Assembly (NCBI RefSeq): GCF_037013735.1
Contig: NZ_CP135136.1
Location: forward strand, 434,001-498,000
DNA from: Candidatus Legionella polyplacis
GTDB taxonomy: Bacteria; Pseudomonadota; Gammaproteobacteria; Legionellales; Legionellaceae
DNA length: 64,000 bases
Reading direction: 5' to 3'
The notes beneath the pieces are model-generated. The model did not search any database, was not told the DNA's origin, and saw nothing but the letters and a program-made list of their open reading frames with translations. Below, piece by piece: positions 2,126 to 5,612 of the stretch; positions within the stretch are counted from its first letter, which is position 1, and the number at the start of each line of letters is the position of its first letter. The position numbers and the translations under genes are program-made.

Positions 2126-2396
2126 ATTGATATGTTAAAATATATATTTATATTGAAGAATATATAATAATTTTATAATATTAAAAAAAAGTGTTTAGTG
2201 TTAGTGTATGTATATTTTTATACTAATAATTTAATTATAAATAAAATTTATAAATTTATTTTTAATAGGTAAATTAATAAAGATTATTGGTATTTTTTGG
2301 TAAAATTAATTTTTATAGTTATATGGATAAATAGTTTTATATGAGTAATATTTTTATTGAATTATTAATTTGTTTTTTATTAGTATAAGTCATTTT

Positions 2397-3083
2397 ATGT
2401 TTTTTAAAATTTTTATTAATGTAATATATTTGTTAATATTTTTAATATTAATTAGTTTGGGGTTATTTCAATTTCATAAGGCGAATGAGAAAAGAGAATT
2501 TTTAAAAAAAAGTTATTTATTTAATAAAAATAGTTATCTAAAAGAATGGACTGTTAATATGAATTTTCCGTATAATTTAGAAAAGATTATTATTAAAGGT
2601 AAATACTTGAAAAATTTTTTGCTTTTAGATAATCAGTACTGTCATCACAATTTTGGATATCGTTTTTTTGTTCCTTTATTGTTGTTAAATGGAAAATTAG
2701 TACTAGTTGATAATGGCTGGATTAGTTATAGTAATTTTAATATAGAGAAAACAAGAAAAGAAAAGTTGCTTTCGGTTATTAATGATTTTCACAATGTTAT
2801 TGGATATGTTTATTATCCTATAAAAAATTATTGGTTATTAGGAAAGTTTTTAGAAAAACGGCATGGGATATTTTTTGTAGAATCATTAGATTTACAAGAA
2901 TTAGGCAAATTTTTGAAAAAAAGAATTTATCCTTTTATTTTGTTATTGGATTATCAAAAAAAACATAATTGTTTTTATGAAGAAAAGATTGATAGTATGA
3001 GTTTTTTTTTGAAAAATTATATTTATGCTTTTCAGTGGTTTTTTTTGTCTATAATTTTTATTGTTTTTTATTTAAAAAAATAG
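2397..3083 (+). CDS. surf1: SURF1-family cytochrome c oxidase assembly protein
   Basis: A 228-residue inner-membrane protein of the SURF1/Shy1 family, which helps insert heme A during aa3-type cytochrome oxidase assembly. It has the family architecture: an N-terminal transmembrane helix (about residues 5-24) leading into LGLFQFHKANEK, a periplasmic domain, and a C-terminal helix beginning YAFQWFFLSI. I chose the ATG at 2397; an in-frame TTG at 2370 would add nine residues and neither has a clear Shine-Dalgarno. It stands directly before ctaA, as in other proteobacteria. Its use is questionable because the adjacent cyoE is decayed. Confidence 0.85.
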   Translation: MFFKIFINVIYLLIFLILISLGLFQFHKANEKREFLKKSYLFNKNSYLKEWTVNMNFPYNLEKIIIKGKYLKNFLLLDNQYCHHNFGYRFFVPLLLLNGKLVLVDNGWISYSNFNIEKTRKEKLLSVINDFHNVIGYVYYPIKNYWLLGKFLEKRHGIFFVESLDLQELGKFLKKRIYPFILLLDYQKKHNCFYEEKIDSMSFFLKNYIYAFQWFFLSIIFIVFYLKK

Positions 3084-3135: not shown

Positions 3136-4170
3136 TTGATTAATAATAATTTTTTTTATATTAAAAATTTTTTAATAAAAATTAAAATAATAAGAATTTT
3201 AATATGTTTTTTATTATTTTTATCTATAGTAGTAATTTTATTAGGATCATATACTCGTTTAAGTAATTCAGGTTTGGGTTGCCCAGATTGGCCATTTTGT
3301 TATGGAAATTGGGTTTACTTAAAAAGTAAATTAAGCTATTTATCTGTATTAGATACTAAGAAGGCAAATATAGAGATTACCCATAGGTATGCTGCTAGTA
3401 TTTTAGGGGTTTTTATTATTATTTTAGATTTTTTATTATTTTTTTTCAGATCATGTTTTGTTAGGTTTCCTTATAAATTGTTTTTTAGTTTGTTATTTTT
3501 ATTATTGTTACAAATAGAATTGGGAAAATTAACGATTGTTTTGAAATTATTTCCAATTATAGTAGTTGGACATTTTATAGTAGGTATTTTGATTTTTTCA
3601 CTTTTATTTTATTTTATGTTGTTTTTATATCCGAGAGCCAATATAAATTTTTATCCTCAATGGAAAATATGGATTAAGATTGGTATATTGATTGTTTTTA
3701 TACAAATTATTTTAGGTGTATGGGTTAGTTCGAATTATTCAGGAATTTCTTGTGTTGATTTTCCAAAGTGTAATGGTGTTTGGATTCCTAAGTTGTATTT
3801 TTCTTACATTTTTAATATGTTTCATTTGGTTAACAAAAATTATCAAGGAGGGATTTTTAATGTTGAAATTCGTTCTGCTATACAGGAAATGCATCGTTTA
3901 GGTTCGGTTTTTACATTAATTTATTTATTAATTTTATGTATTAGTTTTATGAAATATGTTGAAGAAAATGGATTGAAAATTATTATTTTTATTGTTTTAT
4001 TGATAGTTATTTTTCAATGTATTTTAGGGGTTATTAATGTTATTTATTTTTTACCGTTATGGGTTTCTATGATTCATACTTTTATGGCAATTTTATTGTT
4101 TTCTATATTAATATTTTTATTGTTTTTAACACAAAGGAGAAAGCATTATTGTTTATTGAAAGGTATATAA
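3136..4170 (+). CDS. ctaA: heme A synthase (COX15/CtaA)
   Basis: Oxidises the C8 methyl of heme O to the formyl group of heme A, for aa3 oxidases. 344 residues with about eight membrane helices. The first half carries the signature LGSYTRLSNSGLGCPDWP and the second half a degenerate internal repeat (SGISCVDFPKCNG). The four expected heme-ligand histidines are present: H83 (EITHR), H146 (GHF), H253 (EMHRLG) and H314 (MIHTF). The start is TTG at 3136, preceded at five bases by AAGAGG. It reads as intact, yet its substrate-producing partner cyoE immediately downstream is a relic. Confidence 0.92.
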   Translation: MINNNFFYIKNFLIKIKIIRILICFLLFLSIVVILLGSYTRLSNSGLGCPDWPFCYGNWVYLKSKLSYLSVLDTKKANIEITHRYAASILGVFIIILDFLLFFFRSCFVRFPYKLFFSLLFLLLLQIELGKLTIVLKLFPIIVVGHFIVGILIFSLLFYFMLFLYPRANINFYPQWKIWIKIGILIVFIQIILGVWVSSNYSGISCVDFPKCNGVWIPKLYFSYIFNMFHLVNKNYQGGIFNVEIRSAIQEMHRLGSVFTLIYLLILCISFMKYVEENGLKIIIFIVLLIVIFQCILGVINVIYFLPLWVSMIHTFMAILLFSILIFLLFLTQRRKHYCLLKGI

Positions 4171-4172
4171 GT

Positions 4173-4541
4173 TTTATTAAAATTAAAATTTGTTATTTGA
4201 AGTTATGTAAGGTTTTGAATAGTAATGTTTATATGTTATGAAAAAGCATTTTTGTGGTATGTATTTATTATTTGTAAATTGGAATTAGATTATTTGATAT
4301 TTTAATATCTATAATTGGAATTGGCTGTTGTATATGTTGGTTATAAGTATAAATAATTTTTTAGATAAAAAAATTGGTTTGTTAATTAATGGAACTAAAA
4401 ATATGGTTGTTGTTAAAAGTTATATATTTGTTACTAATGTTTGGTGTTTTTCAGTTTTTCTTAGGTATTATAGGTATAATAAATTATATTTTGATTTTAT
4501 TAATTGATTATATTATTTTTTTTTATATGAAAATTTTTTAG
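4173..4541 (+). pseudogene. cyoE: heme O synthase (cyoE/COX10) relic, frameshifted and truncated
   Basis: The 480-base gap after ctaA holds decayed cyoE in several frames. In one frame YLKLCK (4194-4211) matches the family's N-terminal LCKPRV/VTKP region. About 48 codons later, the same spacing as in E. coli CyoE, another frame reads NNFLDKKIGLLINGTKN (4352-4402), colinear with the family's NNYIDRDIDRKMERTKNR. The second aspartate of that catalytic motif is lost. A third frame then reads VFQFFLGIIGIINYILILL up to a TAG at 4539-4541, corresponding to the next helices. At least two frameshifts and internal stops are present, and the last roughly 170 codons are gone. Its position after ctaA is the normal COX15-COX10 synteny. 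Confidence 0.75.
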
Positions 4542-4650
4542 TTATTAGAATATGGAAGTGATATTTAATTTTTATTTTAGAAAATAATTAATTATTAATG
4601 TTGTTAGAATATGTAAGAATATTTTTACAAAATTTTAAATAAAAATTTTT

Positions 4651-5073
4651 ATGAATAGATTTTATGAAATTTTTTTAGGATTTGATTTTGGATATAAACG
4701 TATAGGTTTAGCAGTTGGACAAAGAGTAACATGTAGTGCAAATCCTTTGCCTACATTACAATCTGTTAATGGTGTACCAGATTGGAATTCCATTAAAAAA
4801 ATTATTAGTATTTGGAATCCAAATGCTTTAATATTAGGTTTACCAATTTGTATTGATAGTAGAGAACAACATATTACAGTTGCTACTCGAATTTTTGCTG
4901 ATCAACTTAGAGATAGATTTTTAAAATCAGTTTATTTTATAGATGAACGTTTATCTACTGTTGAGGCACGTGATAGATTATTTAAAAGTGGGGGTTATCG
5001 TAAAGTTATGTCTTCTCCTATTGATAGTTTTTCTGCTTGTATTTTTTTAGAAGATTGGTTAAGAAAATATTAA
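4651..5073 (+). CDS. ruvX: YqgF/RuvX-family Holliday junction resolvase-like nuclease
   Basis: A 140-residue RNase H-fold protein, normal length for YqgF. It is implicated in 16S rRNA 5'-end processing and called a putative Holliday junction resolvase. The conserved GFDFGYKRIGLAVG lies at residues 10-23 (catalytic D12), DERLST at 98-103, and the last acidic residue D125 in PIDSFSACIFLE. No Shine-Dalgarno is evident before the ATG at 4651. It follows the cyoE relic and precedes ratA. Confidence 0.9.
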   Translation: MNRFYEIFLGFDFGYKRIGLAVGQRVTCSANPLPTLQSVNGVPDWNSIKKIISIWNPNALILGLPICIDSREQHITVATRIFADQLRDRFLKSVYFIDERLSTVEARDRLFKSGGYRKVMSSPIDSFSACIFLEDWLRKY

Positions 5074-5168: not shown

Positions 5169-5612
5169 ATGATGTTTTATATAAAAAAAACTTGTGTTGT
5201 TCCATTTAGTTGTGAACAAATGTTTATGTTAGTTAATGATGTTGAAAAATATGATGAATTTTTACCATATTGTTCTGAAAGTTTAGTGCATTATCAAAAT
5301 AATAATGAATTGAAAGCTACATTAGTTATTTCTGTATTGGGACAACAAAGATCATTCACTACATATAATTATTTGTTTTTAAATAAAATGATTATAATTA
5401 ATTTAATTAGTGGTCCATTTAATTATTTACGTGGATTTTGGTATTTTGATAGAAAAAAAAATGTTAATTGTAAGATATCTTTTAGTTTAAGTTGCAAAAT
5501 TATCGAGAGGAAAATAAAGTATTTTCCTATTCAGTTTATTTTATATAAATTTTCTAATAGAATTGTGGATGCTTTTTATAAAAGAGCTAAGGATTTGTAT
5601 GTTAAATATTGA
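5169..5612 (+). CDS. ratA: RatA/COQ10-family START-domain protein
   Basis: A 147-residue START/Bet v1-fold protein of the family that includes E. coli RatA (described as blocking 70S formation) and mitochondrial COQ10 (ubiquinone binding). Family pattern seen: VPFSCEQMFMLVNDVEKYDEFLPYC near the N-terminus, GPFNYLRGFWYF in the middle and a C-terminal amphipathic helix. It starts at ATG 5169 with AGAGG four bases upstream; a second ATG follows at once. It overlaps the start of rnfH by 14 bases, the usual ratA-rnfH pairing. Whether it acts on ribosomes or quinone cannot be told from sequence. Confidence 0.85.
   Translation: MMFYIKKTCVVPFSCEQMFMLVNDVEKYDEFLPYCSESLVHYQNNNELKATLVISVLGQQRSFTTYNYLFLNKMIIINLISGPFNYLRGFWYFDRKKNVNCKISFSLSCKIIERKIKYFPIQFILYKFSNRIVDAFYKRAKDLYVKY

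Follow-up and report, generated by a model that had tools for sequence, protein, structure and literature searches.

How can a bacterium keep a heme A oxidase when the gene for the preceding cofactor step lies in ruins directly behind its heme A synthase gene? The question is raised by a window of 64,000 nucleotides (bases 434001-498000) from an L. polyplacis-type louse symbiont, whose single-contig genome measures 530,980 bp and is 99.94% complete. CtaA converts heme O to heme A, and the formation of heme O from heme B needs CtaB (PMC9145763). A preliminary description of the window had placed a decayed heme O synthase behind an intact ctaA, and had read the locus as a pathway caught midway through its loss. 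The nearest relative compared is a sister genome of the same genus (G001; 529,746 bp), in which gene order matches that of the window genome and which likewise has a broken cyoE and intact cox genes. Legionella polyplacis PsAG (GCF_002776555.1), the symbiont of the louse Polyplax serrata, has been described with 529,746 bp (PMC12175528).

On the forward strand of the window, SURF1, a factor of heme A insertion and assembly of cytochrome c oxidase, is intact at 2370-3083 (Pfam PF02104, E 1.5e-16; dN/dS between the two symbionts 0.265), and is followed at 3136-4170 by an equally intact ctaA (COX15), encoding a heme A synthase of 344 aa with a TTG start (PF02628, E 7.4e-52; dN/dS 0.216). The next intact gene, at 4651-5073 on the same strand (open reading frame lists; dN/dS 0.40), is presumably of the ruvX/yqgF family, and bounds the gap in both symbiont genomes. 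Within the gap no ORF exceeds 60 aa. The three frames and the peptides quoted in the preliminary description are all present: YLKLCK near 4194 in frame 3, NNFLDKKIGLLINGTKN in the ORF at 4328-4507, and a third frame at 4389-4541. Elsewhere in this part of the window, positions 819-2036 encode an intact membrane protein of the BenE family (benzoate transport; PF03594, E 7e-104), whose ortholog in the sister genome shows 94% identity, an odd gene to keep in a 530-kb genome, and at 5563-5612 an rnfH frame overlaps the end of ratA, to an extent that depends on the choice of start codon.

Taken from the window alone, the likeness of the gap to CyoE is suggestive only. A profile search, proposed earlier as the check on this point, gave a borderline result. 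The NCBIfam heme O synthase model NF003348 matches the ORF at 4328-4507 with an E-value of 0.0021 over profile positions 56-101, in the expected place. A frameshift-aware alignment of the interval to a profile built from 21 CyoE proteins of relatives scores 23.2 bits, more than any of 300 dinucleotide shuffles (16.4 +/- 1.8); in this membrane-protein-rich window, however, 3 of 266 other tiles of 480 nt outscore the interval with the same profile. A Pfam search of the small gap ORFs gave no CyoE match, and an Rfam search of 4100-4700 found no RNA.

The identity of the interval is settled by the sister genome, because a full-length pseudogene stands there at the syntenic position and aligns to the window DNA. 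This copy (L034:2266-3098) covers profile positions 16-294 of 296, shares 128 of 272 residues (47%) with the Legionellaceae consensus and reaches E-values down to 1e-37 in tblastn. It has no intact frame: four frameshifts and three TGA stops interrupt it, 22 of 76 invariant CyoE residues are changed, and the spacing between Asn and Asp in its motif, IN-ILDKKID, is shortened. At the DNA level the window interval matches it with E-values of 5e-66 and 5e-34 and identities of 77-82% (82% in global alignment). Comparison with a sister strain, another of the checks suggested at the outset, thus bore out the decayed heme O synthase and found the same broken gene with different lesions.

This alignment also gives the layout of the remnant. 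The N-terminal part, about CyoE residues 16-118, occupies 4171-4489 on the forward strand (77% identity to L034:2250-2592, E 5e-66) and carries several small indels and stops. A deletion junction follows at 4490-4494 in the global alignment, where the middle of cyoE and most of its C-terminal half are gone; the net loss relative to the sister copy is about 513 nt, as two gaps of 226 and 287 nt flanking a 5-nt island. The final piece of the C-terminus lies at 4495-4541, again on the forward strand (blastn of window 4483-4650 against L034:3071-3235, 79% identity, E 5e-34), and homology runs on past 4541 into the intergenic stretch before ruvX. Like the sister copy, the window copy lacks an intact reading frame, and its N-x3-D-x3-D motif is damaged: it reads NNFLDKKIG, the second Asp having changed to Gly. 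We conclude that window positions 4171-4541 almost certainly represent a shrunken cyoE/ctaB pseudogene directly behind intact ctaA. On homology and synteny, the interval is a relic of the protoheme IX farnesyltransferase gene from a former SURF1-ctaA-cyoE cluster.

Sequence comparison shows cyoE to be dead in the two genomes of the genus, with lesions particular to each. In the region that both retain, no frameshift or stop is common to the two. An insertion at L034:2395 and a TGA at 2462 are found in the sister copy only, while small indels around 4211, 4230, 4256, 4283, 4339, 4455 and 4483 are particular to the window. Lesions of the sister copy within the part deleted from the window could be ancestral, so cyoE may have died before or after the split of the two lineages. 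Over 97 gap-free codons, pN is 0.19, pS is 0.15 and dN/dS is 1.27, by the NG86 method, which is rough in a region of about 21% GC. As judged from these rates, cyoE has been without constraint for most of the divergence between the two genomes.

Elsewhere in the family the gene is kept. In a sample of 143 Legionellaceae, ctaA is present in 117 of 117 near-complete genomes and CyoE scores over its cut-off in 128 of 143; an intact cyoE is found in nearly all near-complete genomes, and ctaA adjoins it in most of the loci checked. Apart from the two symbionts, the exceptions are draft assemblies, mostly of low completeness or with a locus that is broken or at a contig edge; in several without a full cyoE match, ctaA or cyoE is split or lies at a contig end (G014, G069, G115, G119). 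One draft (G040; 2.3 Mb, 90% complete) contains ctaA and has no heme O synthase match better than 4e-9, which may reflect its incompleteness or be another case of ctaA without cyoE. Another draft has cyoE in two overlapping frames that together span the full profile (G038:C21:14718-15516), equivalent to a single frameshift; this is either a sequencing error or another young loss. A CtaA scan of the named genome collection yielded no confirmed relative.

Did the decay extend to the enzymes that use heme O and heme A? In both symbionts, CtaA retains His83, His146, His253, His314, Glu80 and the cysteine pairs C49/C55 and C206/C212. The search for the oxidase, also suggested earlier, recovered an intact ctaD and no cytochrome bd. 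CtaD scores 707 bits against TIGR02891, over the cut-off of 670.75 (subunit I of the caa3/aa3 type), and keeps its heme and copper ligands H83, H260, Y264, H309, H310, H395 and H397 in both genomes. It is the one COX1 gene found, and sits in an intact operon with ctaC, which carries a cytochrome c domain, ctaG/Cox11 and ctaE, with matches to COX2, CtaG/Cox11 and COX3. Between the two genomes, dN/dS is 0.05 for ctaD, 0.09 for ctaC, 0.10 for ctaG, 0.22 for ctaA, 0.24 for ctaE and 0.27 for SURF1, values inside or under the range of the other genes compared (0.09-0.40). Had lesions accumulated at the rate of the sister cyoE, ctaA should carry about 9 of them and the six genes together about 49; none was observed. 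Nor is there a clear excess of changes at conserved positions in the window lineage, the one with the most decayed cyoE, when compared with its sister (3 versus 0 in ctaA, 6 versus 7 in ctaD). A search for cydA in either symbiont genome found no cytochrome bd, and no alternative oxidase is present.

Since ctaA, SURF1 and the cox genes are open and constrained, ligands are kept and there is no alternative oxidase, the oxidase seems to be needed rather than dying. It also seems to function in a bacterium that has no heme O synthase of its own, because cyoE drifted neutrally while ctaA and ctaD stayed constrained and free of lesions. As to its electron supply, bc1 cytochrome b (PF00033) and cytochrome c1 (PF02167) were not found in either symbiont, and the caa3-type oxidase is kept all the same. 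Beside ctaC (L049:2846-4240) lies a gene for a triheme cytochrome c, similar to the cytochrome subunit of quinone-linked alcohol/fructose dehydrogenases, which is kept in free-living relatives (50-54% identity) and has a dN/dS of 0.14; this predicted electron carrier may link quinol to the oxidase without bc1.

We found no second cyoE in either genome, the condition on which the preliminary description had rested its reading, and its view that heme O would then need an outside supply holds. The sole other UbiA-superfamily gene is the ubiquinone gene UbiA, which scores 223 bits against TIGR01474 (ubiA_proteo), below that model's own cut-off of 275, versus 67 bits against TIGR01473 (cyoE_ctaB). 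Searches for ferrochelatase and HemB showed both to be absent from the symbiont genomes, so all heme must come from outside. Genes for heme handling of the CcmC and CcmF type are kept along with c-type cytochromes; imported heme must therefore already reach the c-type cytochrome machinery. COQ7, a ubiquinone gene, is kept beside the cox operon. Two polyprenyl synthase genes (PF00348) remain, which makes the lack of a prenyl donor an improbable cause of the cyoE loss.

Heme O is thus probably supplied from outside and, we infer, most likely by the insect host, since the symbiont must import heme anyway. The symbiont would import heme from the blood-fed louse; the imported hemes would include heme O, the product of the host mitochondrial COX10; and the symbiont CtaA would oxidise this heme O to heme A for the only terminal oxidase. 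That CtaA is retained points to import of heme O rather than of finished heme A, since with import of heme A the gene for CtaA should decay alongside cyoE, unless CtaA has a second role in heme delivery. As a whole, this account (a dead cyoE, a kept oxidase, and heme including heme O imported from the louse) falls a little short of an even chance of being right. Its most specific element, a sole terminal oxidase dependent on heme O from insect mitochondria, with the pathway split at the heme O step and finished by the symbiont's own CtaA, we advance tentatively, as a possibility that could well fail.

Several other explanations must be set against heme O import, and two of them, a promiscuous symbiont enzyme and an altered heme composition, would also agree with the observed gene content. 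A working cyoE masked by sequencing or assembly error, or by programmed recoding, deserves practically no credence. Transcriptional slippage can compensate for frameshifts in AT-rich symbionts, but two separate genomes carry different lesions here, the sister copy combines four frameshifts with three TGA codons at non-Trp sites and the loss of invariant residues, and the window copy is without over half the gene, a deletion that by itself refutes error or recoding there. Reassignment of TGA was considered and rejected: the TGA codons of the sister cyoE stand at non-Trp sites, and ratA ends normally with TGA. The reading of the preliminary description, in which the heme A pathway and the oxidase are on their way out and cyoE was merely the first to go, agrees with a dead cyoE, with a far advanced genome erosion and with a respiratory chain already pruned of bc1 cytochrome b and c1. 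It fits poorly with ctaA, SURF1 and four cox operon genes that are constrained (dN/dS 0.05-0.27, versus about 1.3 for cyoE) and free of lesions in both genomes while cyoE drifted, and with the want of a substitute oxidase, and we regard it as distinctly improbable.

If the oxidase is at work, the missing step may have passed to another protein. The obvious candidate within the symbiont is UbiA, through a side activity on heme B and farnesyl-PP: its gene is intact in the two symbionts and evolves under ordinary constraint (dN/dS 0.22), its substrates are partly of the same kind, two polyprenyl synthases remain, and in B. subtilis a CtaB paralogue can complement the loss of CtaB (cited in PMC9145763). 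That paralogue, however, is a close relative of CtaB and not a UbiA, and the symbiont protein looks like a plain UbiA by its 223 versus 67 bits, with a job of its own given that COQ7 is also kept; such a takeover is unlikely, though worth keeping in mind. Supply of the step by a host-encoded COX10-like protein, or by another resident bacterium, for instance the Neisseriaceae symbiont of Polyplax serrata, is very improbable, for although a second symbiont does accompany L. polyplacis in that louse (PMC9376444), it does so only occasionally, and no protein import into L. polyplacis is known. The oxidase might instead run without heme A, with heme B in subunit I or with formyl heme B made by CtaA from unfarnesylated heme, CtaA being kept for this or for heme delivery. 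The retention of both CtaA and SURF1 is compatible with this, and in several bacteria subunit I accepts either heme O or heme A at its heme sites (PMC9145763), yet that published flexibility concerns farnesylated hemes, and every CtaD ligand and conserved residue checked matches those of heme A oxidases. In E. coli, moreover, an oxidase that carries heme B in a cyoE mutant reportedly does not function. We consider an unusual heme in the oxidase to be rather doubtful.

By itself, gene decay in a reduced symbiont is nothing out of the ordinary, and host-symbiont patchworks of gene loss are common; the step lost here, however, is one that provides a hydrophobic intermediate of a cofactor. The usual view is that CtaB passes heme O straight to CtaA. 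Provided that the oxidase works, either heme O can move between organisms, or a different prenyltransferase makes heme O, or the oxidase tolerates another heme, and each option bears on how hemes O and A are trafficked. The combination is unusual: no heme synthesis and no heme O synthase, yet a heme A synthase and a sole aa3-type terminal oxidase under selection. Our literature search returned no case in which cyoE had been lost and the oxidase kept; the paper that first described the L. polyplacis genome (doi 10.1093/gbe/evx217) lay outside that search, and an earlier mention there is possible.

Set beside working heme O synthases (CyoE/CtaB/COX10; TIGR01473, UbiA superfamily PF01040), the symbiont copies occupy the same place behind ctaA, with YLELCK and the N/D motif region still recognisable, but they are closed in both genomes, the catalytic motif is damaged and over half of the window copy is deleted. 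The nearest parallel for the cell as a whole is the tick Coxiella symbiont CLEOA, also a gammaproteobacterium of a blood feeder, which lacks heme biosynthesis and presumably takes up heme b from the host for its heme-copper oxidase (PMC8290121). In CLEOA, however, ctaB is the sole intact heme gene, and heme O is made from the imported heme b (PMC8290121). L. polyplacis presents the reverse, with ctaB dead and ctaA kept: the tick symbiont has held on to exactly the gene that the louse symbiont has lost.
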